Below, one piece after another: positions 2-12,806 of a stretch of DNA of 15,336 nt; the first letter of the stretch is position 1; each line of letters starts with the position of its first letter. The notes below the pieces were generated by a model. The model saw nothing but the letters and a program-made list of their open reading frames with translations. It searched no databases and had not been told where the DNA came from. Both the position numbers and the translations under genes were made by a program. This stretch comes from Magnetococcales bacterium (GTDB lineage: Bacteria > Pseudomonadota > Magnetococcia > Magnetococcales > JADFWU01): positions 1 to 15,336 of the forward strand of contig JADFWU010000061.1 of NCBI GenBank assembly GCA_015234045.1. Reading direction: 5' to 3'.

Positions 2-49
2 ACCATGTCACTGTTGAAAGAGTTGGAGAGCCAGGAGGGTGAATCATGA
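2..49 (+). CDS. 3' end of upstream gene, possibly an SbcD/YhaO-like nuclease
   Basis: An open frame enters the window at base 2 and stops at TGA 47-49. Only its last 15 codons are visible, ending in ...SQEGES. The stop overlaps the ATG of the next gene in the classic ATGA arrangement, so the two are probably translationally coupled. SbcC/Rad50/YhaN-type ATPases are usually encoded directly after their metallophosphoesterase nuclease (SbcD, Mre11, YhaO). That makes a nuclease the best guess, but it is inference from position alone because no diagnostic residues are in the window. Confidence 0.6.
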   Translation, partial: TMSLLKELESQEGES

Positions 50-2295
50 TTATTCGCAGCCTGCACGGCGAAAATATAATGAAGTACGCCAACCTCGATC
101 TGACCGATCTGCCAGAACGGGGTGTTATCGCCATCCAAGGGCGCAATGAATCCGGTAAATCTACGCTGGCCGAGGCGATCTGTCTCGCGCTGTTTGGCCG
201 CACATCCGCACTTGCTGAACCAAAACTCGATCAGGTAATCCGCTGGGGTGAGTCCTCCGCACTGGTGTCCATGTCCTTCACCGGTCGGGATGATCAAACC
301 TATAAAGTAACGCGCTATATTGATCGGGAAGGCGAACATAAAGCCCATCTGTCGAGAAATGGTGAATCCGAGCCGTTCATGTCAGGCTGGCAGGATGTCA
401 ATCGGGCGATGATTCAATCAACCGGGCTGGTGTATGAACGCTATCTGGAGGCGCTCTATCTGGTGCAACGCCGTGGTGGTCAGTCGGGAATGGATCATCA
501 TACGCTCAAAGCACTGGCCGGTGTTGATCTGATCGAGAAGGCAGAGCAACAGCTACAGGATGAGCAGGCTAACGCAGAGCGGGAGATCGTGAATCAGGAT
601 CGAAGCCGTCTTGAACTGCTTCAACAACGCCGTGCTTTGGATCTAAAGCCAGAACGACTTGACGCGTTGCAAAATGATCTGACCGATAAGAAAAAGCAGC
701 TTTCAGAGGCACGTAATAGCGAGACCCAATGGACTCAGGTGGTAACCGACATCAATCGGGCTGGAAATGATGTTCAATCCAGCGTCAAAGCGATCATGGA
801 GTCGGTGAGAAAGAGCCAATACAAAAAGTGGGACACCACCACCAATGATATGGCTATGTCGCTGGCCAATTGGCAGGATGCTGAAGATTTGATCGAACAA
901 ACCGGTGAAGATGCCGGTATAGATGGGCCAAAACAGCTTGGTAGTTGGCTATCCGGTTTTCTGGAAAAGGTTGCCGGACTGACAGCCATTCGTGAACAGG
1001 TGGTGGTGTTTCAAAAATCGCTGGCTGTCTGGATGAGTGATAAACCCGGTTCTGACAAGAAACCGACTTATCAAGAAGAGCGTAAAAAGCTGGAGAAAAA
1101 GCACGATGTGCTAGCGAGTCGGAAACGGATGATTGGTCTGTTTGCGTTACTGTTTTTGATCGTTGGTATTGTTGGGGCGGGCGGTTGGGGGCTGCATGAT
1201 CGCATGCCCGAAGAGCCAATGGTTGTACAAGGTTCTGCGTGGGTAGAGGCCAATGTGCCGCACTGGAAACCGGCCTATTGGGGCTATTCCGGTATCGCTG
1301 GTGGTGGTTGTCTGTTTCTTGGTTTGCTGGTCCTGGGTCGCTCCTTTCGGGTAGGTTCTGCGCTTTCCAAGTATAAAAAGTCCTTGAAAGAGTTGAAAGA
1401 GCGTGCGCGTGAGAGTCAAGCTGCCATAGAGGGACTTCAAGCCGCTTTGGATTCGCCACTGGAAAAACAGATTCTTGCACTTGGAAAATTCGATAATGCG
1501 CCTTGGCGCGATACGCTCTCTGATTGGCAGGACCGGCATGGTGAACAACTGCTAGAGCATGAGATGCGTAACCACTATCTCAAAAAATGTCAGACCGCGC
1601 TGGATCTGTTTAGCAAACAGAAACAGGAGATGGTCAGCGACATCGATAGCCAGATTAGTGAGGTGGTGGAAAGCTGTTCAATGCTTGATGAGAACGTCAG
1701 TCAACTGGACGAACAGATCGCCGAGGAGAAACAGCGCCGCGAGCAGGATAGTGGACTCAATGAACTTCTGGCAGAGAACGAACAAGCCAGCAACGCCCTG
1801 CAACGACAGATAGAGATCCGCCAAGTTTCACGTGAATTGCTAACCGGAACTGCACGGCGCTCCATGACCAAATTTCATCAGGAGCTACAAGGCTTTCTGT
1901 CCAAAGTTACGCCCATGTTTACCGAGGATCGCTATCAACAGCTTCGCATTGATGACGAACTGCTGGTACAGGCGTTTTCGGTGCAGAAAAATGACTTCCT
2001 CGGTTTTGAAGAGGTCTCAACCGGCGTACAGCATCAGATGCTGTTGGCACTTCGGGTAGCACTGGCGCAAGCGGTGGTGGCTCGATCTGCAAAAACCGCC
2101 CAGTTTCTGATTTTTGACGAACCGTTCGCCTTTTTCGACCGCTATCGTACCCATTCGGCACTGAAAGCGTTTGAGGATATCAGCCCGGAAATCGCCCAGA
2201 TCTGGGTTATTTCTCAGGAGTTTGATGAAGAATTTCCATTTGCGGCGCGACTAAGTTGCGATCCTGACAGTGATGTTGTGGCGGTGCAAAGCTGA
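46..2295 (+). CDS. SbcC/Rad50/YhaN-like ATPase with two internal membrane segments
   Basis: This is a 749-residue ABC-type ATPase of the SMC/Rad50 superfamily, expected to work with a nuclease on DNA ends. The Walker A motif GRNESGKST lies at residues 32-40. The signature-like stretch STGVQHQ is at 658-664 and Walker B with its catalytic acid (LIFDEP) at 688-693, so the two halves of the head sit at the two ends. Between them are charged, glutamine-rich stretches typical of coiled coil (about 160-230 and 435-600). Unlike E. coli SbcC, from memory about 1050 residues, there is no CxxC zinc hook. Two hydrophobic segments (about 362-382 and 412-434) flank a short loop where a hook would be expected, which recalls YhaN-type proteins that carry membrane helices. 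The start ATG overlaps the upstream stop. The family call is firm, while membrane anchoring is a prediction from hydrophobicity. The exact subfamily is uncertain. Confidence 0.88.
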   Translation: MIIRSLHGENIMKYANLDLTDLPERGVIAIQGRNESGKSTLAEAICLALFGRTSALAEPKLDQVIRWGESSALVSMSFTGRDDQTYKVTRYIDREGEHKAHLSRNGESEPFMSGWQDVNRAMIQSTGLVYERYLEALYLVQRRGGQSGMDHHTLKALAGVDLIEKAEQQLQDEQANAEREIVNQDRSRLELLQQRRALDLKPERLDALQNDLTDKKKQLSEARNSETQWTQVVTDINRAGNDVQSSVKAIMESVRKSQYKKWDTTTNDMAMSLANWQDAEDLIEQTGEDAGIDGPKQLGSWLSGFLEKVAGLTAIREQVVVFQKSLAVWMSDKPGSDKKPTYQEERKKLEKKHDVLASRKRMIGLFALLFLIVGIVGAGGWGLHDRMPEEPMVVQGSAWVEANVPHWKPAYWGYSGIAGGGCLFLGLLVLGRSFRVGSALSKYKKSLKELKERARESQAAIEGLQAALDSPLEKQILALGKFDNAPWRDTLSDWQDRHGEQLLEHEMRNHYLKKCQTALDLFSKQKQEMVSDIDSQISEVVESCSMLDENVSQLDEQIAEEKQRREQDSGLNELLAENEQASNALQRQIEIRQVSRELLTGTARRSMTKFHQELQGFLSKVTPMFTEDRYQQLRIDDELLVQAFSVQKNDFLGFEEVSTGVQHQMLLALRVALAQAVVARSAKTAQFLIFDEPFAFFDRYRTHSALKAFEDISPEIAQIWVISQEFDEEFPFAARLSCDPDSDVVAVQS

Positions 2296-2299
2296 GGAG
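2294..2299 (+). promoter_or_regulatory. ribosome binding site that favours GTG 2307 over ATG 2301
   Basis: GAGGAG overlaps the stop codon of the SbcC-like gene. It leaves only one base before ATG 2301 but seven before the in-frame GTG at 2307. Normal Shine-Dalgarno spacing therefore favours the GTG start. The signal peptide is intact with either start. Confidence 0.5.
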
Positions 2300-2300
2300 T

Positions 2301-3449
2301 ATGACAGTGTTCAGCTATTCAAAGTGGTTGGCGTTTGCGCTGTTATTCTGTCTGTTGGCTGGACCGGCACAGGCTGATAAACAGTTGGATCAGATCAGTG
2401 ATAACGCTTTTAAAGCCTTGCAGTATATGCAAAAGAAAAAAGGTCTGTTTCACTACGAATATGATCTGGTCGCACAGAAATATTCAAAAAAGAACAATAT
2501 GGTACGCCAAGCGGGCACGGCTTATGCGCTTGGAGAGTATCTACTTCGCACCAAAAGCAAACCTGCACGTCAGGTGTTGGCAAAGGCACTGAACGCGCTG
2601 CAATCAAAGTCAATCGGCTTCAAAAACGGTAAGCTGGTCACCTCGAAACGCCTTCTTTCCAAAGCCAAAACCGGCACCACAGCGTTGTCACTGCTGGCTG
2701 AATTACACTATTACTCAGCCACTGGTGATGAACAATTTGCTGAAATCCGCAAGTCTTGGAAAGATGGCTTGCTGGCTCAATATCGGCCAGGTGCTGGGTT
2801 TGCCAAGCTGCCGAAGTCGGACATTGAATCTGATTATTACAACGGTGAAACCTGGTTGGCGCTGGCCTGGTATCACGCGCTGTTTCCTGACGATAAGAAG
2901 GTCGGTGCGCTTCTGCCAAGGGTTGATCACTATATGATGAAGCGCTACAGCCGCGAGCCGCTGTCTGGATTCTATCATTGGGGCATGTTGGCCAGTGCGA
3001 AGCGGATGCAGACCAAAGTTGATGATAAACTGATCGCCTTTGCGCGTAGTCAGACTGACGTCTATTTAAAGAAATTACGGCCTGAGCCGAGACCATCGGT
3101 CAACACCTGTTCTGCCATTGAAGGATTGAGTGCAGCGGTGTTGATTCTTGATCATTCTGATAGCCATGGTCAGCTAAAAAAACGCGCTTTACGTCGGATC
3201 TTCATTGAAGAGAAACAGAATTTTCCATTCCAGATCAAAGCCAATCAAAGACGGCTTGATCTTGGTAACGGCGTCGCTCTCCACTCGCCGGAGCTGTCCC
3301 GATTCCAAGGTGCGTTTGTTAACGGACGTCGGAAACCACGCATGCGGGTGGATTTTACTCAGCACTGCCTTTCAGCGGCATTACGTCTCTCTGCATTGAG
3401 GGATAAGATGGCCGAGAAGCCCGTAACCACGCAATCATCCACGCCTTAG
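2301..3449 (+). CDS. exported all-helical protein of unknown function
   Basis: I do not recognise this 382-residue protein with confidence. It begins with a signal peptide: lysine near the N-terminus, hydrophobic core about 9-20, likely cleavage after AQA at residue 25. It should therefore be exported. The mature part alternates amphipathic helices with short polar turns and conserved-looking patches such as NMVRQAGTAYALGEYL (66-81) and DYYNGETWLALAW (178-190). These patterns recall alpha/alpha-toroid proteins related to six-hairpin glycosidases and epimerases, but that is only a fold-level impression. GAGGAG at 2294-2299 lies almost on the ATG at 2301. GTG at 2307 has a more normal spacing of 7 bases and may be the real start, shortening the protein by two residues. 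It is separated from the SbcC-like gene by 5 bases and ends directly against the next ATG, so it belongs to the same operon. Confidence 0.8.
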   Translation: MTVFSYSKWLAFALLFCLLAGPAQADKQLDQISDNAFKALQYMQKKKGLFHYEYDLVAQKYSKKNNMVRQAGTAYALGEYLLRTKSKPARQVLAKALNALQSKSIGFKNGKLVTSKRLLSKAKTGTTALSLLAELHYYSATGDEQFAEIRKSWKDGLLAQYRPGAGFAKLPKSDIESDYYNGETWLALAWYHALFPDDKKVGALLPRVDHYMMKRYSREPLSGFYHWGMLASAKRMQTKVDDKLIAFARSQTDVYLKKLRPEPRPSVNTCSAIEGLSAAVLILDHSDSHGQLKKRALRRIFIEEKQNFPFQIKANQRRLDLGNGVALHSPELSRFQGAFVNGRRKPRMRVDFTQHCLSAALRLSALRDKMAEKPVTTQSSTP

Positions 3450-6400
3450 ATGTCGGTTTTTCGCCATTTCCGTCTGAACAGAGTGCTGTTTTGGCTCTTG
3501 TTTGTTGGTATGGCGTTGAGTCTTGCTCATCTGCTTGTTCCAGACTATCAATGGGGCCAGGGGCGGTCTTCGATATTCTCCATGAATCACAGTTTGTCGC
3601 TGGCTTCTTGGTTGGCGGCCATGCAGTTTTTTCTCAGTGGGTTGTTTGCGCTGATTGGGATGATCCGTGCCCGATGGCTGGGCCACTCTGAAAAAGCCTT
3701 CTGGGGCTGGTTTGTGGTGGTGTTGATCGGCTTTGGTCTGTCTTTTTTTGAGTTCTCCCGACTTTATGAGCGGGTGGTTTTTGTTGGTTCTGTAGATCTT
3801 TTTGACCAGTTGGCTCAATCCGGCATTGGATTCCTGTTTCTGTTTCCGTTGATGTTTTTTATCAGCTACTGGCGGTTGGTGGATGGCTTCTCCAATCGTC
3901 TGTTGATGCTGATGGCGACGGCGTTTGGTGGCGCGTTATTGCTGGGGCCGATTGCCTGGTTGATGGAACCCGATGTCCAGATGCTTTTGAATGGGCTGGC
4001 TGGACTGTTTCATCTCTGGGGTGGTGCGTTGCTGCTGGTGTTGGTGATGCGTCAGACCCTGGTTGATGGGGTTGTGTTTGGCTATAGGCTGCGTGACGGT
4101 GTTCAGCCCGGTGGAGAGATTCGACCAGTAGTTGCCATGGCGGTCATCGCTGGCGCGGCCATGAGTCATAGTGCGGTTCAGATCCTGCTGTTTCATATTG
4201 CCTCAGTGTTCCACAACTACACCATTGCACAGACCATTATTTCGGTGGCGCTGTTGGGGTTGGCTGTGGGTGGTTTGATCGGTTATCGGCTGGCCGGGTT
4301 GGATATTCGTCGTCTGTTTGTGGTGAGTGGCACGGTAACGGCTATTTCGTTTCTGTTGGCGCTGGGTGTGCTGGCTTCTCTGGCGGATTTTCCCTGGTTA
4401 TCGGCGCTGCTGTTGATGCCCGGTTTCAGTGCCATCAGTGTGATCATGACGGTGATTCTGATCCGCCATGATGCCCATGTTACCTATGGCAGTATGCTGA
4501 TTGGTGCGGCGCTGGGAGCGATCCTCATTGATCCCATGTTGGGACTCTGGCAGGAAGAGGGCGCACTGCTGGCATTGACGCTGATTCCGTTCGGTATCGC
4601 CATGCTGTTTGTTCAGAAAGCGAACTTTCGGCCTGTGGTGGTTTGGCCGATGGTTGTGGTGATGTCGGTACTATTTGGTGTGCTCTGTACGGTGGTGATT
4701 CAGTCACCACATGAGGCTTTGAATATCACTCTGAATAAATACCGTGAAAAATATCCCGATTTGAAGATTCTGCATAGCCACTCATCCACGGTGGGACGCT
4801 ATGAGATCGTCAAGCGTACTAAAAAAGCCAATTCATTAAAGTCAAAAGAGAACGGTCGAACCATCGACACAATCCGTGATTGGCCGCCGGAGAATTATCA
4901 GATTGATCCACGTCTGCCACACACTTGGAAACAGCAACCAAAAGTATTGATCATCGGTCTATCCGGTGACGGTATTGCCAAAACGGCTCGTGAGCGTGGC
5001 GGATCGGTGGTGGGGCTGGAGATCAATCCACATGTGGTGGATATTCAGCAAAACGTCCTGAAGCGGCGCAACGGCAACAGTTACGCGGGTATAGATGTGC
5101 GTGTTGCTGATGGCTGGGGTTTTGTCCGCACCGACACCGGTGTGTATGACATGATTACATTACTGAATACGCATCATTCCCGTGGTTCGTTGTCAGGTCG
5201 TGCGCCCAGTCCAGAGAATCTTTATTCCATTGAGACCATTCATCACTATCTGGATCGACTTTCTGACGATGGTTTGATCCTGATAGAACATCCCACCGGA
5301 TCGCCTCAGCATGAACCGGTGATCTGGAAAATGCTTACCACCATGCGACAAGCGCTGTTGATGCGCGGTGCAGAACGTCCAGAAGATCATTTTTTTATCT
5401 TCATGTGGCGCACGCGCTCCAATCACTACGCCCAGATCGTCATGAACAAAACGCCCATTACCGAACCGCAGCTCAATAAGCTAAACCAGTGGTTGCGGGA
5501 TGTGGATGAGATGAAAGCGCTGGAAAAAGCGGCGGAAAAACGTCTGGGACCGATTAAGGCGCACACCTTGGTTCTGCATGCGCCGGGACAGGAACGACCG
5601 GGCATTGTCTCCAAGGCGGTGCGTGGTCTGTTGCCGGAATCGTTGGTTGAGAAACGTCATCTGGAACCGATGACTGATGACAGGCCGTTTCTGTTCGACG
5701 TGTTGCCGGATCGGGCCATGATTACCGAGTCCATGGCGGTGATATTGGTGGTGGCTTTGGTACTGGTGGCGCTGTTGTGGCGCTCTATGGAACGGGTGTT
5801 GATCTCTCATCATGTGATGGTGTTTTTGACCGGCTTGGCCTATCTGCTCATCGAAGTGGTGTTGATTCAGCGCGGGGCGTTTTTTCTTGGAGCGCCTGCG
5901 GTGGTGTTTGCGGCCATATTGGGTGGATTGTTGGTGTTTTCCGGTCTGGGTAGTGTGATGGGGCGCTGGATTGGTGGTGATCGACCCTGGTGGATTGTGC
6001 TGGTGATCATCGGGTTGTTGATGGGCTATGAATGGCTCTCGCCGGGGCTGTTTGCCTGGGCTGGTGGTTGGAGCTTGGCGGAAAAAACCGCTCTGTTGGT
6101 GGCATCCATTGCGCCGCTGGCGTTTTTTATGGGCATGGTGTTTCCGTTTGTATTGGACCATGCCCGGATAAATCATGTGGAACGCAGTGCCGGTAGTCTG
6201 TTTGCCATCAACGCCATTGGTAGTGCTTTGAGTGTGCCGATCACGCTGTTTTTAACCATGGTCGTCGGCATGACCGCCACCTTTTATCTGGGTGTACTGG
6301 CTTATCTTTTGGTACTGCTGTTGTTGATGGGGCTGTTTTGGGTTCCGCTTCGGGGAGTGGGGTTGGCGGCGGCAGGGCTGTTTATTGTTATGGTGATCTT

Positions 6401-7226
6401 TTCGCCTTGGTGGAGTGGTCCGGCGGTTCAATCGCTGGTGGCTCAGGAAGCGACGCCAGCAAAAGTGTATGCATTGAAATATGGTGAATCACGGGTCAAG
6501 CAGAAGACGGTCTATTACAACGGCTCATCACGTAAGAGAATGAAATTCGCCTGGTGGTTTTGGATGGTTGAGATGCCGGATGGGCGGCGGATTCTGGTGG
6601 ATACCGGTACCGATGACAAAAGCCGCCTGAACAAATGGAAAGTGAAGAATTATACGCATCCAACCGAGTTGTTGGCGCGGCTGGATGTTGCTCCACAGGC
6701 CATCACCGATATCATTCTGACTCACCTACATTGGGATCATATGGGCTTGATCTCGGCCTATCCCGATGCGCAGATATGGCTTCAGCAAAAGGCTTGGGCG
6801 CATGCTGAGAGCCGTTTTTCTGATACCAATAAATCGTTTCTCAACGGCATGGACCGGCAGCACTGGCAGCAGTTGCAGAAACGCCATGAACGGGGCTTAG
6901 TATCCCTGATGGATGGTGATCAACAGATGGTGCCCGGTCTATCGGTTAGCTTGGCAGAGAGCCACACACCCGGCGGTCAGTATGTGACCATAGAGACTCA
7001 AGAAGGCCCGTTGATTCTGGCTGGCGACGCCATCTATCTCTATCGCAACAGCCAACACCACCGCCCATCCCGTTCCCATGGCCCGGAACAGGGCTTGGAT
7101 ATAATCGAAAAAATGCAGTGGCAAGCGGCATCACCCTACTGGATCATTCCTGGACATGATCCATTGGTAAAAAAATTCTTCCCGGAAGTGGCTGACAACA
7201 TCGTCGCCCTGACACCGTGGCCGTGA
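3450..7226 (+). CDS. trimodular membrane fusion: 6-TM domain, spermidine-synthase-like domain, AHL-lactonase-type metallo-beta-lactamase
   Basis: This 1258-residue protein has three recognisable modules. Residues 1-215 hold six hydrophobic helices that resemble the next gene. Residues about 225-1000 look like a membrane-fused spermidine-synthase-like protein. That module has about seven helices (225-420), then a soluble Rossmann domain with KVLIIGLSGDG (498-508) and the acidic VVGLEIN (520-526), then about eight helices (763-1000). The latter include the family-like patches LIEVVLIQRG and FFMGMVFPF. Residues about 1005-1258 form a metallo-beta-lactamase domain with H1092-x-H1094-x-D1096-H1097, H1172, D1193 and H1236, plus Y1196 three residues after D1193. 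This is the AiiA-type AHL lactonase pattern as I remember it. The usual aminopropyltransferase aspartate (YDxIxxD) appears to be lost, since Y566-D567 is followed by L572, so polyamine synthesis is doubtful. ATG 3450 directly follows the previous stop with no clear Shine-Dalgarno site, suggesting coupled translation. Substrates are unknown. Confidence 0.88.
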   Translation: MSVFRHFRLNRVLFWLLFVGMALSLAHLLVPDYQWGQGRSSIFSMNHSLSLASWLAAMQFFLSGLFALIGMIRARWLGHSEKAFWGWFVVVLIGFGLSFFEFSRLYERVVFVGSVDLFDQLAQSGIGFLFLFPLMFFISYWRLVDGFSNRLLMLMATAFGGALLLGPIAWLMEPDVQMLLNGLAGLFHLWGGALLLVLVMRQTLVDGVVFGYRLRDGVQPGGEIRPVVAMAVIAGAAMSHSAVQILLFHIASVFHNYTIAQTIISVALLGLAVGGLIGYRLAGLDIRRLFVVSGTVTAISFLLALGVLASLADFPWLSALLLMPGFSAISVIMTVILIRHDAHVTYGSMLIGAALGAILIDPMLGLWQEEGALLALTLIPFGIAMLFVQKANFRPVVVWPMVVVMSVLFGVLCTVVIQSPHEALNITLNKYREKYPDLKILHSHSSTVGRYEIVKRTKKANSLKSKENGRTIDTIRDWPPENYQIDPRLPHTWKQQPKVLIIGLSGDGIAKTARERGGSVVGLEINPHVVDIQQNVLKRRNGNSYAGIDVRVADGWGFVRTDTGVYDMITLLNTHHSRGSLSGRAPSPENLYSIETIHHYLDRLSDDGLILIEHPTGSPQHEPVIWKMLTTMRQALLMRGAERPEDHFFIFMWRTRSNHYAQIVMNKTPITEPQLNKLNQWLRDVDEMKALEKAAEKRLGPIKAHTLVLHAPGQERPGIVSKAVRGLLPESLVEKRHLEPMTDDRPFLFDVLPDRAMITESMAVILVVALVLVALLWRSMERVLISHHVMVFLTGLAYLLIEVVLIQRGAFFLGAPAVVFAAILGGLLVFSGLGSVMGRWIGGDRPWWIVLVIIGLLMGYEWLSPGLFAWAGGWSLAEKTALLVASIAPLAFFMGMVFPFVLDHARINHVERSAGSLFAINAIGSALSVPITLFLTMVVGMTATFYLGVLAYLLVLLLLMGLFWVPLRGVGLAAAGLFIVMVIFSPWWSGPAVQSLVAQEATPAKVYALKYGESRVKQKTVYYNGSSRKRMKFAWWFWMVEMPDGRRILVDTGTDDKSRLNKWKVKNYTHPTELLARLDVAPQAITDIILTHLHWDHMGLISAYPDAQIWLQQKAWAHAESRFSDTNKSFLNGMDRQHWQQLQKRHERGLVSLMDGDQQMVPGLSVSLAESHTPGGQYVTIETQEGPLILAGDAIYLYRNSQHHRPSRSHGPEQGLDIIEKMQWQAASPYWIIPGHDPLVKKFFPEVADNIVALTPWP

Positions 7227-7238
7227 TGGGGTGCTGAT

Positions 7239-8126
7239 ATGGATCCCAAGCAGAAACACCAGTATCAGCAGGTTAAGCGACTATTACAGCGTTTTTTTTG
7301 GATGCTTTTTGTACTGATTGCGCTTATGGGCTTGGCGCACCTCCTCTGGCACGACGTCAAAGCAGGTGGTACCTCCTGGTTCAATCTGGACAAGGAGCGC
7401 AACTTACCCACTTGGTTTTCCGGTATTCTGCTGTTTTCCGTAGCAATAGCCTCACTGTTTGCCCATCGATTGGAACGCCACCTGATCCAACAAACCAGCC
7501 TGCAACTGCAAGGCGTTTATTTTTGGATACTCTTGTCAATAATCGGCGTTGGTCTCAGCCTGGATGAGATGCTGATTCTGCATGAAAACCTCTACTGGCG
7601 CGAAATCCGTCAAATCAGCGAAGCCCTGAATCCCACCCTGATCTACATCACCCAATGGCAACTGCTTTTGGCACCGCTGATGGTGTTTCTGCTCGCCCTG
7701 ATACTGCTGTTTCTCCACAGTCGTTTAACCTTCTCCATCCGTACCCGTTTATTGGTGGCTTTCGGTATCGGCACATGGACCCTGGCGATTTTCTTTGAAA
7801 GCATCCGCCAGTGGTTTCTATTCTCCGGTTCGGATTGGTATCAATGGGAGGTGATAATAGAAGAGCTATTGGAGTTGGCTGGAACGGTATTTCTGTTAGT
7901 GGCGATTTTGTCCTATTGCCTGGAGATTTTTTATAGAAGTGAAGCGCTTCAGAGCGAAGCAGGATCCAGCTTTGGAAAACTGTTTTCCGTGGATGGGATG
8001 AAGTGGGTGTCGGTTTTTCTGGCAGTGGTTTTGTTTGGTGCCACCATGGTTTATAGCGTTGGAAAATCCCTGGAAACCAAACGCGCTCCGATACCGACAT
8101 TGCAGAAGCGGGCCATTGATAGGTGA
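7239..8126 (+). CDS. multi-spanning membrane protein, paralogous to the N-terminal module of the preceding gene
   Basis: This 295-residue integral membrane protein has about seven hydrophobic helices: six in residues 20-235 and one near the C-terminus (about 260-280). The third helix region carries GVGLSLDEMLILHEN, an acid-rich DE...HE signature seen in uncharacterised bacterial membrane proteins. The first 200 residues match the N-terminus of the preceding 1258-residue protein in helix order and short motifs: GLAHLL against SLAHLL, and SIIGVGLSLDEMLILHEN against VLIGFGLSFFEFSRLYER. The D and H positions are changed in the larger protein. GGGG at 7228-7231 lies 7 bases before ATG 7239, and only 12 bases separate it from the preceding stop, so the two are co-transcribed. 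Its function is unknown. It is the last gene of the operon, and the next gene has its own promoter. Confidence 0.85.
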   Translation: MDPKQKHQYQQVKRLLQRFFWMLFVLIALMGLAHLLWHDVKAGGTSWFNLDKERNLPTWFSGILLFSVAIASLFAHRLERHLIQQTSLQLQGVYFWILLSIIGVGLSLDEMLILHENLYWREIRQISEALNPTLIYITQWQLLLAPLMVFLLALILLFLHSRLTFSIRTRLLVAFGIGTWTLAIFFESIRQWFLFSGSDWYQWEVIIEELLELAGTVFLLVAILSYCLEIFYRSEALQSEAGSSFGKLFSVDGMKWVSVFLAVVLFGATMVYSVGKSLETKRAPIPTLQKRAIDR

Positions 8127-8155
8127 TTGAAAATCAATGTTATTACATGTATAAT
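8127..8155 (+). promoter_or_regulatory. sigma70-type promoter of the TA operon
   Basis: TTGAAA (8127-8132) and a perfect TATAAT (8150-8155) are separated by exactly 17 bases. The -35 box begins directly after the stop codon of the upstream membrane protein. Transcription would start near 8162, giving a leader of about 15 bases that contains the AAGGAG site. Confidence 0.78.
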
Positions 8156-8163
8156 AACATTGA
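8134..8163 (+). promoter_or_regulatory. operator: perfect inverted repeat over the TA promoter
   Basis: The arms TCAATGTTATTA (8134-8145) and TAATAACATTGA (8152-8163) are exact reverse complements around a 6-base centre, CATGTA. The repeat covers the promoter spacer, the -10 box and the likely start point. Bound protein would therefore block RNA polymerase. AbrB/MazE-type antitoxins bind such palindromes, so autorepression by the next gene, perhaps with its toxin, is the natural reading. Confidence 0.75.
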
Positions 8164-8176
8164 AAGGAGTCGTGTT

Positions 8177-8401
8177 ATGACGACATTGAAATTGATTTCA
8201 GTAGGCAATTCTACCGGTGTGGTTCTACCTAAAGAACTGCTATCTCGCCTGCGTGTTGAAAAAGGCGATGCGCTATATGTGGTTGAAACACCAACGGGAA
8301 TTGAGCTGTCTGCATATGATCCTGAATTTGATCGACAGATGGAGATGGCTGAATCCATCATGCGGCAGGATCGAGATGTGTTGAAAAAGCTGGGAAGCTG
8401 A
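8177..8401 (+). CDS. AbrB/MazE-type antitoxin of a Doc toxin
   Basis: A 74-residue swapped-hairpin AbrB DNA-binding protein that should neutralise the adjacent Doc toxin and repress the operon. Residues 5-40 (KLISVGNSTGVVLPKELLSRLRV and onward) match the family core: a first strand, the N-S-x-G turn, the LP-x-E motif and a hydrophobic second half. The acidic, amphipathic tail (48-74, with DPEFDRQMEMAE) is the usual toxin-binding part. AAGGAGT at 8164-8170 lies 6 bases before ATG 8177. An in-frame upstream ATG at 8123 would lie on the previous gene's stop and add residues encoded by the operator, so 8177 is chosen. The toxin start follows 4 bases after this stop. Confidence 0.88.
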   Translation: MTTLKLISVGNSTGVVLPKELLSRLRVEKGDALYVVETPTGIELSAYDPEFDRQMEMAESIMRQDRDVLKKLGS

Positions 8402-8405
8402 TTCC

Positions 8406-8798
8406 GTGTCTACACCAATTTGGGTATTGAGACAGACCGTTTTAGCTATTCACAATCGTCAGCTAGCAGAGCATGGCGGGCCGCCCGGTCTTCGTGATGA
8501 AGGGTTGCTTGATTCAGCACTGGCCCGTCCTGAAAACTTGCTGGTGTATTCGGATATAAAGCCAAGCATTGAGCGCCTTGCGGCGGCTTATGCATACGGC
8601 ATTATCCGTAACCACCCTTTTGTCGATGGAAACAAGCGTGTGGCCTATGTGGTTTGTTTGTTGTTCTTGAAATTGAATGGGCGGTCTATAAAACTTTCTG
8701 ATCTAGAGAAATATAATGCTTTCATGGCCCTGGCTGATGGTGGTATGACAGAAGAGGCATTTGCTCAGTTCTTGCTATCAAAAAGCTTTCCCAATTGA
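8406..8798 (+). CDS. doc: Doc/Fic family death-on-curing toxin
   Basis: A 130-residue Fic-fold toxin. The motif HPFVDGNKR (70-78) is the Doc version of the Fic motif, with lysine where AMP-transferring Fic enzymes have glycine. In phage P1 Doc this goes with phosphorylation of EF-Tu and arrest of translation, and the same activity is inferred here. Other Doc-like patches are IHNRQLAEHGG (15-25) and GLRDEGLLDSALARP (28-42). The chosen start is GTG 8406, just after the antitoxin stop at 8399-8401, because homology begins right there and no ATG lies upstream in frame close by. The low-efficiency start fits the need for less toxin than antitoxin. The length is usual for the family and no key residue is missing, so the toxin should be active unless neutralised. 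Confidence 0.92.
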   Translation: MSTPIWVLRQTVLAIHNRQLAEHGGPPGLRDEGLLDSALARPENLLVYSDIKPSIERLAAAYAYGIIRNHPFVDGNKRVAYVVCLLFLKLNGRSIKLSDLEKYNAFMALADGGMTEEAFAQFLLSKSFPN

Positions 8799-9137: not shown

Positions 9138-12100
9138 TTAATCCCCTTCAGACAGAATCTCCTGAATTCGTTTTTCAGTCACTTCTACATTCTCAGTCAG
9201 TCCCATTATTCGATAAGCCTCACATGAGGCTTTCAGAAACTCCACGGCCTCATTTTTCCAACCAAATTGGGCAAGCAAATTACCAAGTCTCCAGCCAATG
9301 ACACTAATGAAATTCGCATTTCCCAACTTCCAGGCTGAGGCAAAAGCCTTACGCAAATCATCAATGATACTCATAATCGCTTTTGGGTTTTCAACGCCTT
9401 TTTCCAAGCGGATGTCAGAAATGTAGTACCAGCAACGAATCAGTCCTTCTTTATTCTGCAATGATTCGTATAAAGGAATGCACTCTTCTTGATGAATGCG
9501 TAATGCCTCATCAAGATCTCCTTGTTGTTGCCGAATTTGGGCAATATTCCCCCAAATGATAGCACGAGAGAGAACATCTCGGAGGCGCTCATAGACAGGC
9601 AATTGTTCGACTTTTAGAATACGCAAGGCTTCGTCGAGTTCCCCTCTGGTGGCTAAAATATCAGCGATTTCTCCCCAAGTGGTAGCGCGAGAGCTAACAT
9701 CTCCGAGGTGCTCAAAGACAGGCAATAGTTCGACTTTTAGAATGCGTAAGGCTTCGTCCAGCTCTCCTCTGGTGGCCAGAATATTAGAGATTTTACCCCA
9801 AGTGATAGCGTGTTCGCGAACATCTTGGAGGCGCTCATAGACTGGCAATAGTTCGACTTTTCGAATGCGCAAGGCTTCGTCTAGCTCCCCTCTGTAGGTC
9901 AGAATATCAGCGATTCTTCCCAAAGTGATAGCGCGTTCGCGAACATCTTGTAGGCGCTCAAAGACGGGAAATTCTTCGACTTTTCGAATGCGCAAGGCTC
10001 TGTCGAGCTCCCCTCTGATGACTAGAATATCAGCGATTTTTCTCCAAGTGATAGCCAAATGGCGGGGGTCTTCCTTTTTTTGAAAGACCTCTTTTGACTT
10101 CTCCAACCATTTTAAGGCACCATCATAATCACCTAGAGTTCTAAGACGTTCGGACCATACATTCCATAGTTTGGCTATTTCATAGGAAGGATGCTTATTG
10201 TTATCAATTTTTTTTGCAATTATTTTCTCTAGTTCAGAGTCCCAACTGGATTGATTGGCACAACTTACAATCAACTGCATCAGGTTTGTTTCAAGATCAG
10301 AATTAATTTGCTCCCCGGACAGTTTTTCCAAAGCCGTCTGGGCCATTTCCAATGGCTTTTCAGGATGTTTTAATTTCTTCCAGAGGTGCCAACCTCCATA
10401 ACGAGCTGCTTTTGTCAGAATTTCTGGGCAGTTACTGGCCAAGTTGGCCAGTTGATAGAGTGCCACTGATTGGGTTGACCATGGCAAATTACCATCTGAA
10501 TCCAGCCAAGCTGAATAAAGCAGTGGTGCGGCTGATTGGGCCAGCAGGGTTGCTTCTTCGTCGGATGGATCCTCAAAAAGGTGACGGGCCAGCGGATTGG
10601 TGATCAGTTCAGCGGGTTCTGATTGTTTGTCGGTATCATAACGGTCGATAAGGCCTAGGCCGGTGAGGCGGGTTAGGGCTTTTGCTGGTTGGTCCACTTT
10701 GAAATCGGCGCATACTTTTTCAGCCACCAGTTTCGGGATGGGCAGGCCGAATAGCATCATGGCTCTGAAAGCCTGGGTGATGTGCGCTGGTAGGGTGGCG
10801 CGGAATTGGTCCAGGGCCATGCGTTTGAAGAAATCTCCGGCGTCGCCCTCGGTGGTGGTTTGGCCTTTTTTTAAATATTCCTCAACAGCTTTGATTGCTT
10901 TTTTTGCTGCCTTAATCTCTTTATTCAGAATGGCATTGGATAATAGATTTTGCAGGCCGGGGTTGCCTTGAGATATGTCAACGCACCGGTTTAAGAGTGG
11001 GCCGATCTCATGAAACCATTCAGGATCCAACTGGATGTCCGCACGGTTAATATGGTGGTGTAACTCGGTTTGCTGCTGTTTGTACTGCTCCACTAGACCC
11101 ATGGGGGGGAGGGCGATAGTGGTCAGTGTCTTAGCAGCCAGATCCCGATTGGTATTATCGGGTAGAGTGAAGGTGTAGCGGCTGGTGAGCAATAGGCGGG
11201 AATCGGTTCGGCTGGTGTGAAGGGCCGATAGCACTGCACTCAATGGTTTTTTATAGCGGTTTTTCACTGTGGTGAAATCACCGGAAGCGGGCAGGGGATC
11301 AAGAATCTGTTCCAGATCATCCAGAATCAACAGAATCGGATTGTACTCCGCTTGCAGTGTGTCTAGCAGGTCTTCTAAAGCATCGGCCAATAGGGTTGGG
11401 TCATCTTTGATACTTGCGAGCCAATCCCGTTTTTTGCTGGCTCTGTCTTTGGGTTTCAATGCCTTGATGACAGCGCTAAAAATCGCTTGGGCATCATAGC
11501 TGCCATAGATCACCACTGGTTTGTGTTTGGGTAACCTGTTAGCGATCCGAGCCGCTACACTGGATTTTCCTTGATTGCCCATGCCATGGACCAGTGCCCC
11601 TTTTCCTTCACTTAACGTCCGTAAAATACGTTGCAATATCCGCCGACGGCCAACGAATAGATTCCGTGGTGCAACGGGTACTTTTTTCTCCAGATCAAGA
11701 TATTCCTGATAGCCGATTTCATGACCAGTTGTGGATCGCTGATGGCCATTTTGAATGGTTACGGTGCTGCCACCAGTACCGCCCAGATAGAGCCGTGCAA
11801 GGTGCCAGTGACGACCAAGATTATGTTCTGAATCTTTGATCCATTTTTGATAAAGGACTTGTCGGGCCTTGGCTGCGGCATGGGCAACTGTGCTGAATCC
11901 GGCCAGATCGGAATAAAACTGTTTTGCGAACTGGGAGGCATCCCAATCTAACACCGGGCCATCCCAGCCCATAACGTTGCCAACACCGGAAATAATCAAA
12001 TCGGTGGCCAAAGAACCCACTGCGGCACGGCTTGCCGCACTGTGACAGGCGGACAGAAACACCATCGGTGGTGGTTTCTCACCTAAAGCGTTGATTAAAT

Positions 12101-12806
12101 TGGCTACAGAGACATCTTCTTGATCACCAAAATCATTCTCCAATGCCAATACCGGTGTACCCTCATCAAATCCACCGTGACAGGAGAGATGCAACGCCTC
12201 AATGGGACCATCCAACCGCACCCGTTCACTGAGATTGAACAGATTGCCGCTCTCTTCTACCAGCAGTTGCAGCGGTAGCGTACCGGTTGCATTGAGAATA
12301 CTGGTCTCTTCCTGTTCAAAATCCAGTTCTGATACCCCATCCGGTGCTGCTGCCATAAACATCAAGCGCAGATCACGGTTTTCAGCCTGATAACTGGTTT
12401 CCTGATCACCCAACCACCGCTCAACAAGGAATAGACGCCTATGATCTTCAACAACAAAACGCCCTTCAGGCAGTGCCAACAGCTCCCAAGGCGCACCGAT
12501 CATTAATCGAGCGCTATTCGGTGTCTCCTCATTGCGCTCCATCTCCTCAATGGAAACCGTTAACGATAGTTTGATCGCCCCAGTTCCCTTGATGCCATTG
12601 ACCAGCCAATCCTGACCACCATCCAGCCACTGAAACAGCGCCTGACCAATGGCCAATAGCTCCGCCCGGTCTTCGGTCTCCAACACCTTGGCATAGCGTT
12701 GAATCAGGCCATCTAATTCCGTCAGGTGATCCGCTTCCAACTCCCGACGATTATCAATCGGATCATTGTATAGCGTGTCATCTTCCAACCTGATCTTTAT
12801 GCTCAT
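9138..12806 (-). CDS. CHAT protease-STAND ATPase-TPR protein (NLR-like, candidate defence effector)
   Basis: A 1222-residue multidomain protein. Residues about 100-345 form a CHAT (caspase/separase-like) domain with the catalytic dyad H210 in LHLSCHGGF and C254 in VFLSACHSAA. Residues about 380-625 form a STAND/NB-ARC-type NTPase. Walker A is GMGNQGKSS (408-416), Walker B is ILLILDDLEQ (491-500), the sensor-1-like stretch is LLLTSRY (538-544), and a GNP variant of the GxP motif lies at 614-616. The rest is alpha-helical and ends in TPR-like repeats, including five 41-residue units (910-1114). The layout of protease effector, switch ATPase and repeat sensor matches bacterial NLR-like proteins that trigger cell death on sensing phage or stress. 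Defence is inference from this layout and from adjacent TA genes. GGAG (complement of 12815-12818) lies 8 bases before ATG 12806. All key residues appear intact. No partner gene is adjacent. Confidence 0.88.
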   Translation of the reverse strand: MSIKIRLEDDTLYNDPIDNRRELEADHLTELDGLIQRYAKVLETEDRAELLAIGQALFQWLDGGQDWLVNGIKGTGAIKLSLTVSIEEMERNEETPNSARLMIGAPWELLALPEGRFVVEDHRRLFLVERWLGDQETSYQAENRDLRLMFMAAAPDGVSELDFEQEETSILNATGTLPLQLLVEESGNLFNLSERVRLDGPIEALHLSCHGGFDEGTPVLALENDFGDQEDVSVANLINALGEKPPPMVFLSACHSAASRAAVGSLATDLIISGVGNVMGWDGPVLDWDASQFAKQFYSDLAGFSTVAHAAAKARQVLYQKWIKDSEHNLGRHWHLARLYLGGTGGSTVTIQNGHQRSTTGHEIGYQEYLDLEKKVPVAPRNLFVGRRRILQRILRTLSEGKGALVHGMGNQGKSSVAARIANRLPKHKPVVIYGSYDAQAIFSAVIKALKPKDRASKKRDWLASIKDDPTLLADALEDLLDTLQAEYNPILLILDDLEQILDPLPASGDFTTVKNRYKKPLSAVLSALHTSRTDSRLLLTSRYTFTLPDNTNRDLAAKTLTTIALPPMGLVEQYKQQQTELHHHINRADIQLDPEWFHEIGPLLNRCVDISQGNPGLQNLLSNAILNKEIKAAKKAIKAVEEYLKKGQTTTEGDAGDFFKRMALDQFRATLPAHITQAFRAMMLFGLPIPKLVAEKVCADFKVDQPAKALTRLTGLGLIDRYDTDKQSEPAELITNPLARHLFEDPSDEEATLLAQSAAPLLYSAWLDSDGNLPWSTQSVALYQLANLASNCPEILTKAARYGGWHLWKKLKHPEKPLEMAQTALEKLSGEQINSDLETNLMQLIVSCANQSSWDSELEKIIAKKIDNNKHPSYEIAKLWNVWSERLRTLGDYDGALKWLEKSKEVFQKKEDPRHLAITWRKIADILVIRGELDRALRIRKVEEFPVFERLQDVRERAITLGRIADILTYRGELDEALRIRKVELLPVYERLQDVREHAITWGKISNILATRGELDEALRILKVELLPVFEHLGDVSSRATTWGEIADILATRGELDEALRILKVEQLPVYERLRDVLSRAIIWGNIAQIRQQQGDLDEALRIHQEECIPLYESLQNKEGLIRCWYYISDIRLEKGVENPKAIMSIIDDLRKAFASAWKLGNANFISVIGWRLGNLLAQFGWKNEAVEFLKASCEAYRIMGLTENVEVTEKRIQEILSEGD
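9465..10079 (-). repeat. five tandem 123-bp units encoding 41-residue TPR-like repeats
   Basis: Five consecutive in-frame units (residues 910-950, 951-991, 992-1032, 1033-1073, 1074-1114) share a core like RGELDEALRI followed by LPVYERL. At DNA level the same landmarks recur every 123 bases. The middle three units (9588-9956) are the most alike. The first and last have drifted, a usual pattern for an array that grows and shrinks by unequal recombination. Degenerate units flank both ends. Confidence 0.9.

Follow-up and report, generated by a model that had tools for sequence, protein, structure and literature searches.

A six-helix domain, a spermidine-synthase-like membrane core and a predicted periplasmic metallo-hydrolase joined in one open frame of a Magnetococcales bacterium

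The subject of this study is a gene of a Magnetococcales bacterium that lies at positions 3450 to 7226 of a 15,336-base stretch of DNA, hereafter the window. The window is one complete contig (C75) from a draft assembly of 117 contigs, 3.65 Mb in all. An earlier note, made from the letters of the window alone, had described the gene as one uninterrupted frame encoding a six-helix domain, a membrane-fused spermidine-synthase-like core and a metallo-beta-lactamase. Our analysis indicates that the protein is a new combination of known kinds of parts, and the most economical reading is that of a periplasmic hydrolase carried on a membrane body resembling the transporters of the major facilitator superfamily (MFS). 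The features of the gene, followed by those of its neighbors, are listed here; all are on the plus strand.

3450..7226, +, three-module membrane protein of 1258 amino acids, in a single open frame with an in-frame coding signal throughout
3450..4064, +, module 1 (residues 1-205), six-helix domain, probable degenerate paralogue of the downstream product (BLASTP, profile match, residue loss)
4095..4700, +, first seven helices of the core (residues 216-417; core-family homology, topology, MFS fold match)
4701..5729, +, spermidine-synthase-like Rossmann insert (residues 418-760), predicted periplasmic, with an altered cofactor loop (family profile, structure match)
5730..6344, +, last seven helices of the core (residues 761-965; homology, topology, helices in the structure model)
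6357..6410, +, helix 21 (residues 970-987), at the signal-peptide position of secreted relatives
6456..7223, +, metallo-beta-lactamase-fold hydrolase (residues 1003-1258), AiiA/AidB-like, predicted periplasmic (Pfam PF00753, E 2.4e-15)
6723..6740, +, HLHWDH metal-binding motif (residues 1092-1097)
7239..8126, +, stand-alone six-helix membrane protein, intact paralogue of module 1 (homology; all eight invariant polar residues)
2301..3449, +, upstream gene, predicted secreted and mostly helical protein (N-terminal signal-like segment)
46..2295, +, SbcC/Rad50-like ATPase with a membrane segment in mid-protein, first gene of the apparent operon (AAA_23, E 1.2e-15; paralogue on contig C69)

The three modules are encoded by one uninterrupted frame of 1258 codons, as had been claimed. 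In codon statistics trained on the neighboring genes, this frame outscored both others in all windows of 80 codons, those over the two joints included, and a hidden frameshift is therefore unlikely; no sign was seen at either joint of the frameshift that the earlier note had named among the grounds for abandoning its proposal. Homology also stayed in the same frame across the joints, with residues 226-965 aligning to membrane proteins of about 800 amino acids and residues 1003-1254 to metallo-beta-lactamases. The fusion gene starts immediately after the upstream gene's stop codon, and 12 nucleotides past its own stop codon the stand-alone six-helix gene begins.

Module 1 is a real six-helix domain, and on sequence grounds it is best read as a degenerate copy of the neighboring gene and not as an unrelated domain. 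BLASTP aligned it with the downstream product at E 1e-7 (27% over 142 amino acids), and a profile built from the downstream protein and three relatives recovered it at 3462-3878 (E 2.9e-4). Pfam and NCBIfam scans named no family for the module, and no Pfam model scored above its cut-off in the six-helix family. In 19 members drawn from several families, eight polar positions never or hardly varied; numbered as in the downstream protein, they are E53, D109, D/E110, H115, E116, E208, E209 and E212. That protein retains all eight, whereas module 1 retains two (the equivalents of E110 and E116) and has lost the others by the changes E53S, D109F, H115Y, E208A, E209G and E212H. Because module 1 is homologous to the downstream protein yet has lost most of these residues, the best reading is that of a degenerate paralogue joined to the core.

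The core was collinear over residues 226-965 with an unnamed family of proteins of about 800 amino acids that consist of seven helices, an insert and seven more helices (loci L060-L139). Members were found in Alpha-, Gamma- and Betaproteobacteria, Acidobacteriota, Kiritimatiellae, Planctomycetota, Chloroflexota and others, and in the members tested every NCBIfam model stayed below its cut-off. One apparently longer member, an open reading frame (ORF) of 1144 amino acids in Ensifer (L117), was rejected as an extended architecture, its extra N-terminus looking like non-coding read-through. A model of the core plus hydrolase was made with AlphaFold (AF2) from an alignment of 55 sequences, all of them core sequences, and most of the core was predicted at a local confidence (pLDDT) of 80-95. 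The modeled membrane part matched 14-helix MFS transporters, namely 6h7u of the POT family (Z 18.6, 375 residues, root-mean-square deviation 4.5) and AmpG (9j9z, Z 17.8); Pfam gave no MFS match for it. The predicted fold resembles that of these transporters; the fusion differs in carrying a domain of 343 residues inserted after helix 7, and any role in transport is putative. The modeled insert matched spermidine synthases (VIA Z up to 18.1), as did a family profile of the insert compared with solved spermidine synthases (E 5e-13, 1uir). A viral structure library yielded only generic methyltransferases and one weak MFS-like match.

Membrane topology was predicted with a home-made tool that freely fits hydrophobic helices and positive-inside charges. 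The best fit for the whole protein (score 88.6) had 21 helices with the N-terminus inside, in the order six helices, seven helices, Rossmann domain outside, eight helices and hydrolase outside. Without the first module this is seven helices, a domain of 343 amino acids and eight helices, which reproduces exactly the "about 15 helices with a Rossmann insert" of the earlier note. In the assigned topology the short inside loops had 24 Lys or Arg in 134 residues and the outside loops 5 in 126. The same fit applied to core relatives placed the Rossmann domain outside in 40 of 40, and gave seven plus seven helices with the C-terminus inside in 37 of 40. MFS proteins usually have the N-terminus inside; in an MFS-type fold with that orientation the loop after helix 7 is periplasmic, in agreement with the charge-based fit. 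Single topology calls are not safe, and the family consensus is the stronger result. The Rossmann insert and the hydrolase are both predicted to lie outside the inner membrane, in the periplasm, which answers for the hydrolase the question of sidedness that had been raised with the first description.

The C-terminal module has the full set of metal ligands of its fold (HxHxDH ... H ... D ... H): H1092, H1094, D1096, H1097, H1172, D1193 and H1236. The best-scoring relatives came from a search of Acidobacteriota (top E 1.6e-36 to 8e-43), and a hydrophobic, signal-like N-terminal segment stood just before the domain in all seven Acidobacteriota hydrolases examined. Two apparent leads were set aside: an extension of plasmid lactonase matches (H4, H6) into helix 21, which lay upstream of the annotated starts, and metallo-beta-lactamase ORFs of 564 and 425 amino acids (L039, L040), which appear to be over-extended readings of GC-rich DNA.

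The core family has no counterpart of the strongly hydrophobic helix 21; its members end inside after helix 14. Because helix 21 stands at the position of the signal-like segment of the secreted relatives and is missing from the core family, its simplest source would be a signal peptide that became a membrane helix. Since the core relatives end inside, one added helix would lead the hydrolase outside.

We give an even chance to the reading that the protein is a private inner-membrane transporter-hydrolase fusion acting on a periplasmic lactone or ester. Its body would be a 14-helix MFS-fold membrane domain whose periplasmic loop after helix 7 holds the spermidine-synthase-like domain. The gene of a secreted metallo-hydrolase would have been joined to the 3' end of the core with its old signal peptide retained as helix 21, so that a lactone- or ester-splitting enzyme came to be anchored at the periplasmic side. 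At the 5' end a second copy of the six-helix gene would have been added; with an even number of helices, this would leave the orientation of the remaining protein unchanged. Module 1, its polar center lost, is probably a docking or structural piece for the intact partner encoded just downstream. Most likely, the hydrolase would open a small periplasmic lactone or ester, and either this substrate or the product would be carried across the membrane by the MFS-like body. The earlier note had suggested that core and hydrolase act on related molecules, and it is plausible that they may share a substrate.

Among the alternatives, the best placed is periplasmic quorum quenching, in which the hydrolase would be a true N-acyl-homoserine lactone (AHL) lactonase destroying incoming signals, much as is assumed for QsdH, and the core a mere anchor; we consider it unlikely. 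The nearest curated families are indeed AHL lactonases, AiiA chains are among the nearest solved structures, and the fusion has in common with the AiiA/AidB-type lactonases (NF045699, NF047979) the HxHxDH motif, the distal His, the bridging Asp and the last His. There is also a precedent in QsdH, in which a periplasmic AHL lactonase domain lies within a resistance-nodulation-division (RND) transporter (PMC3466314). Both polypeptides combine a transporter or transporter-like body with a putative lactone hydrolase that is predicted to be periplasmic; in QsdH, however, it is an N-terminal GDSL hydrolase on an RND pump (PMC3466314), whereas here it is a C-terminal metallo-beta-lactamase on an MFS-like core. 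The fusion differs from the AiiA/AidB type in being membrane-fused and in scoring far below every AHL-lactonase cut-off (65.3 bits against 375 for the NCBIfam AiiA model, NF045699), and 4-pyridoxolactonase, methyl parathion hydrolase and unnamed "glyoxylase" relatives match as well. A 14-helix MFS-like body also exceeds the needs of an anchor. Of the "AHL-lactonase-type hydrolase" of the earlier note, the complete metallo-beta-lactamase with all its ligands stands, but AHL lactonase is only the nearest curated family.

It is likewise improbable that the gene encodes a polyprotein from which a secreted hydrolase is freed, either by signal peptidase cutting after helix 21 (for example between SGPA and VQ near residue 992) or by an internal start (GGGGAG...TTG near 6353-6366). 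Helix 21 and the linker do resemble a signal peptide with its cleavage region, and the relatives are free secreted enzymes, but the candidate cleavage and start sites were judged by eye and uncleaved signal anchors are common.

The residues of the insert bear both on the amine substrate proposed earlier and on a further alternative, periplasmic group transfer, in which the core would still use S-adenosylmethionine (SAM) or a related cofactor outside the cytoplasm and the hydrolase would trim or proofread the product. The core family keeps a nearly invariant Gly-rich loop, the acidic E524 after strand 2 (53 of 54) and R556 (54 of 54), which are typical of cofactor binding. The fusion, however, is changed at family-invariant positions (S505, D507, W556, H575 and S593): its cofactor loop is GLSGDG against GxGGG in the family, R556 is replaced by W, D575 by H and T593 by S. 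The Asp at 575, conserved in 45 of 54 relatives, holds the position of the catalytic Asp of (D)xTDP, where the fusion has H575 in the segment LLNTHHSRG. At the acid of GxG(D/E)G that serves decarboxylated SAM, the fusion has an aligned Gly, with the acid shifted by one. Pfam PF01564 (spermine synthase) gave no match at E 0.05 in the fusion protein. The NCBIfam model of a fused MFS/spermidine synthase, NF037959, was absent among the matches at E 1 for this core and six relatives, although HMMER filters can drop weak matches. The membrane polyamine aminopropyltransferase (NF002956, PRK03612) has membrane helices and a spermidine-synthase fold in common with the core and a weak profile match over 245-635; that match reaches 25 bits against a cut-off of 472 and leaves out the second helix bundle of the core, and the catalytic residues differ. 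Because the loop, Arg, Asp and Thr are changed and no spermine-synthase match was found, aminopropyl transfer, or any polyamine role, appears unlikely here. The spermidine-synthase-like fold of the original proposal stands, and its amine substrate is weakened, also by the MFS-like membrane part.

Group transfer has a precedent in NHMT (AN4663), the fungal N-terminal histidine methyltransferase of lytic polysaccharide monooxygenases, a resident of the endoplasmic reticulum (ER) of 558 amino acids (PMC10349129). Its seven helices followed by a spermidine-synthase-like domain without the Asp/Glu of GxG(D/E)G resemble the layout of the core; it differs in having no second helix bundle, six-helix module or hydrolase, and its seven-helix sequence has been described as fungus-specific (PMC10349129). 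ER residence and secreted substrates suggest that its domain lies on the luminal side, similar to the layout of the core. Given the changed residues of this insert, and since we know of no periplasmic SAM pool in bacteria, we hold group transfer to be improbable too.

Several observations weigh against a transporter-hydrolase fusion with its hydrolase in the periplasm. The core is only 21-26% identical to its relatives. In Escherichia coli controls, the topology tool put the large loop on the right side for MalF, CopA and KdpD and on the wrong side for KdpB. The closest Pseudomonadota relatives of the hydrolase are without signal peptides, and a hydrolase tree, with a long branch and 87/45 support, leaves the grouping with secreted or cytoplasmic enzymes unsettled. 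The hydrolase part of the AF2 model, with pLDDT under 50, is unusable because the alignment held only core sequences. If one of helices 14-21 did not span the membrane, the hydrolase would be cytoplasmic, as its Pseudomonadota relatives are; the best alternative topology, with 20 helices and the Rossmann domain likewise outside, scored 84.9 against 88.6 for the best fit. We regard this placement as quite improbable, since helix 21 is strongly hydrophobic and foreign to the core family, nearly all of whose fitted members end inside after 14 helices.

No full-length counterpart of the fusion was found in 61 genomes (47 of the same order), in 398 genomes of the phylum, in 199 genomes of the phylum of an Acidobacteriaceae bacterium (G429), in 49 core-bearing genomes, among viral contigs or in a close-relative pattern scan of 84,980 species; plasmid searches gave single modules only. 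About 700 genomes were searched directly, and these searches were samples or pattern-limited, so that "not found" does not equal "absent"; the genomes compared included none from the source genome's own family. The first or last module was present in none of the 73 core ORFs recovered, and neither a hydrolase of matching type nor a six-helix gene occurred within about 6 kb of 80 core loci. These results agree with the earlier view that the two end modules are additions to a common core, and the same three-module order, sought in other genomes, was not seen in those searched. An assembly chimera or a decaying gene in a metagenome bin, for which one could cite the missing counterpart and a window that is a whole short contig of a fragmented draft, is very improbable in view of the uniform one-frame coding signal over both joints, the intact metal site and the tight operon spacing on both sides.

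The fusion gene is third in an operon-like order of SbcC/Rad50-like ATPase, which we take to be YhaN-like, predicted secreted helical protein, fusion and intact six-helix protein. The upstream protein had no match in Pfam, NCBIfam or the Protein Data Bank, and a low-confidence model from its single sequence (pLDDT 41) was all-helical. The ATPase and secreted-protein pair (window 46-3449) has a diverged second copy on contig C69 of the same draft genome (L055:2-2823), with 60% and 54% identity, which is cut by the contig end; a second core copy was not found in the assembly. The upstream and downstream neighbors of the fusion had no plasmid homologues. Farther along the window are a toxin-antitoxin-like pair (8123-8798, plus strand), a MazE/doc_partner antidote followed by a Fic/Doc death-on-curing protein, and a protein of 1222 amino acids (9138-12806, minus strand) with a CHAT protease-like domain, an AAA/STAND ATPase and tetratricopeptide repeats, an arrangement that recalls the NLR-like proteins of bacterial immunity or cell death. 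The PADLOC matches mad2 and mad3 were rejected as a defense system, since they resemble generic matches to methyltransferases and ATPases.

In other genomes the six-helix gene adjoins sulfatase-like, phosphoethanolamine-transferase-like, MBOAT-like and AMP-ligase genes (the phosphoethanolamine-transferase and AMP-ligase names were given by eye). In one relative belonging to the same taxonomic order, the six-helix gene lies near a membrane spermidine-synthase-like gene of 532 amino acids, adjoined by a sulfatase-like gene and by a pair of MBOAT-like and AMP-ligase genes (L047:5327-6922 and L047:7424-11396). Stand-alone six-helix proteins with the invariant Asp/His/Glu center are also encoded in or beside pilus genes, pilin-like or pilMNOQ (L149-L162, for example L152:6275-7105, and the loci L047 and L163 of G011). 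Within the pilMNOQ cluster the gene stands beside secreted Ser/Lys-rich proteins with a CH...HGD..G.C motif, repeated as CHxPPGNPxxxxTLSVxxxAVxAHxxHGDxxGxC; one family of these has a C-terminus like SxHREIMGQ, and proteins with a similar motif occur near the six-helix genes of G011 as well. The genomic context, both in the operon and in the six-helix neighborhoods elsewhere, suggests a connection with the cell envelope.

The operon, with its degenerate and its intact six-helix copy, is a simple setting in which to investigate this unnamed membrane family and its conserved Asp/His/Glu center. For the core, it is possible, though doubtful, that the family is an uncharacterized MFS-fold class, present in many phyla, with a periplasmic spermidine-synthase-like cofactor-binding domain; such a class would perform cofactor-dependent reactions outside the cytoplasm, the membrane domain delivering cofactor or substrate, and the fusion described here would link the family to lactone or ester hydrolysis and to a six-helix partner. 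To our knowledge SAM does not occur in the periplasm, and the topology raises the question of why bacteria of many phyla appear to put a spermidine-synthase-like domain there. The linkage of core and hydrolase in one polypeptide is a direct hint at what this large unnamed membrane family may handle.

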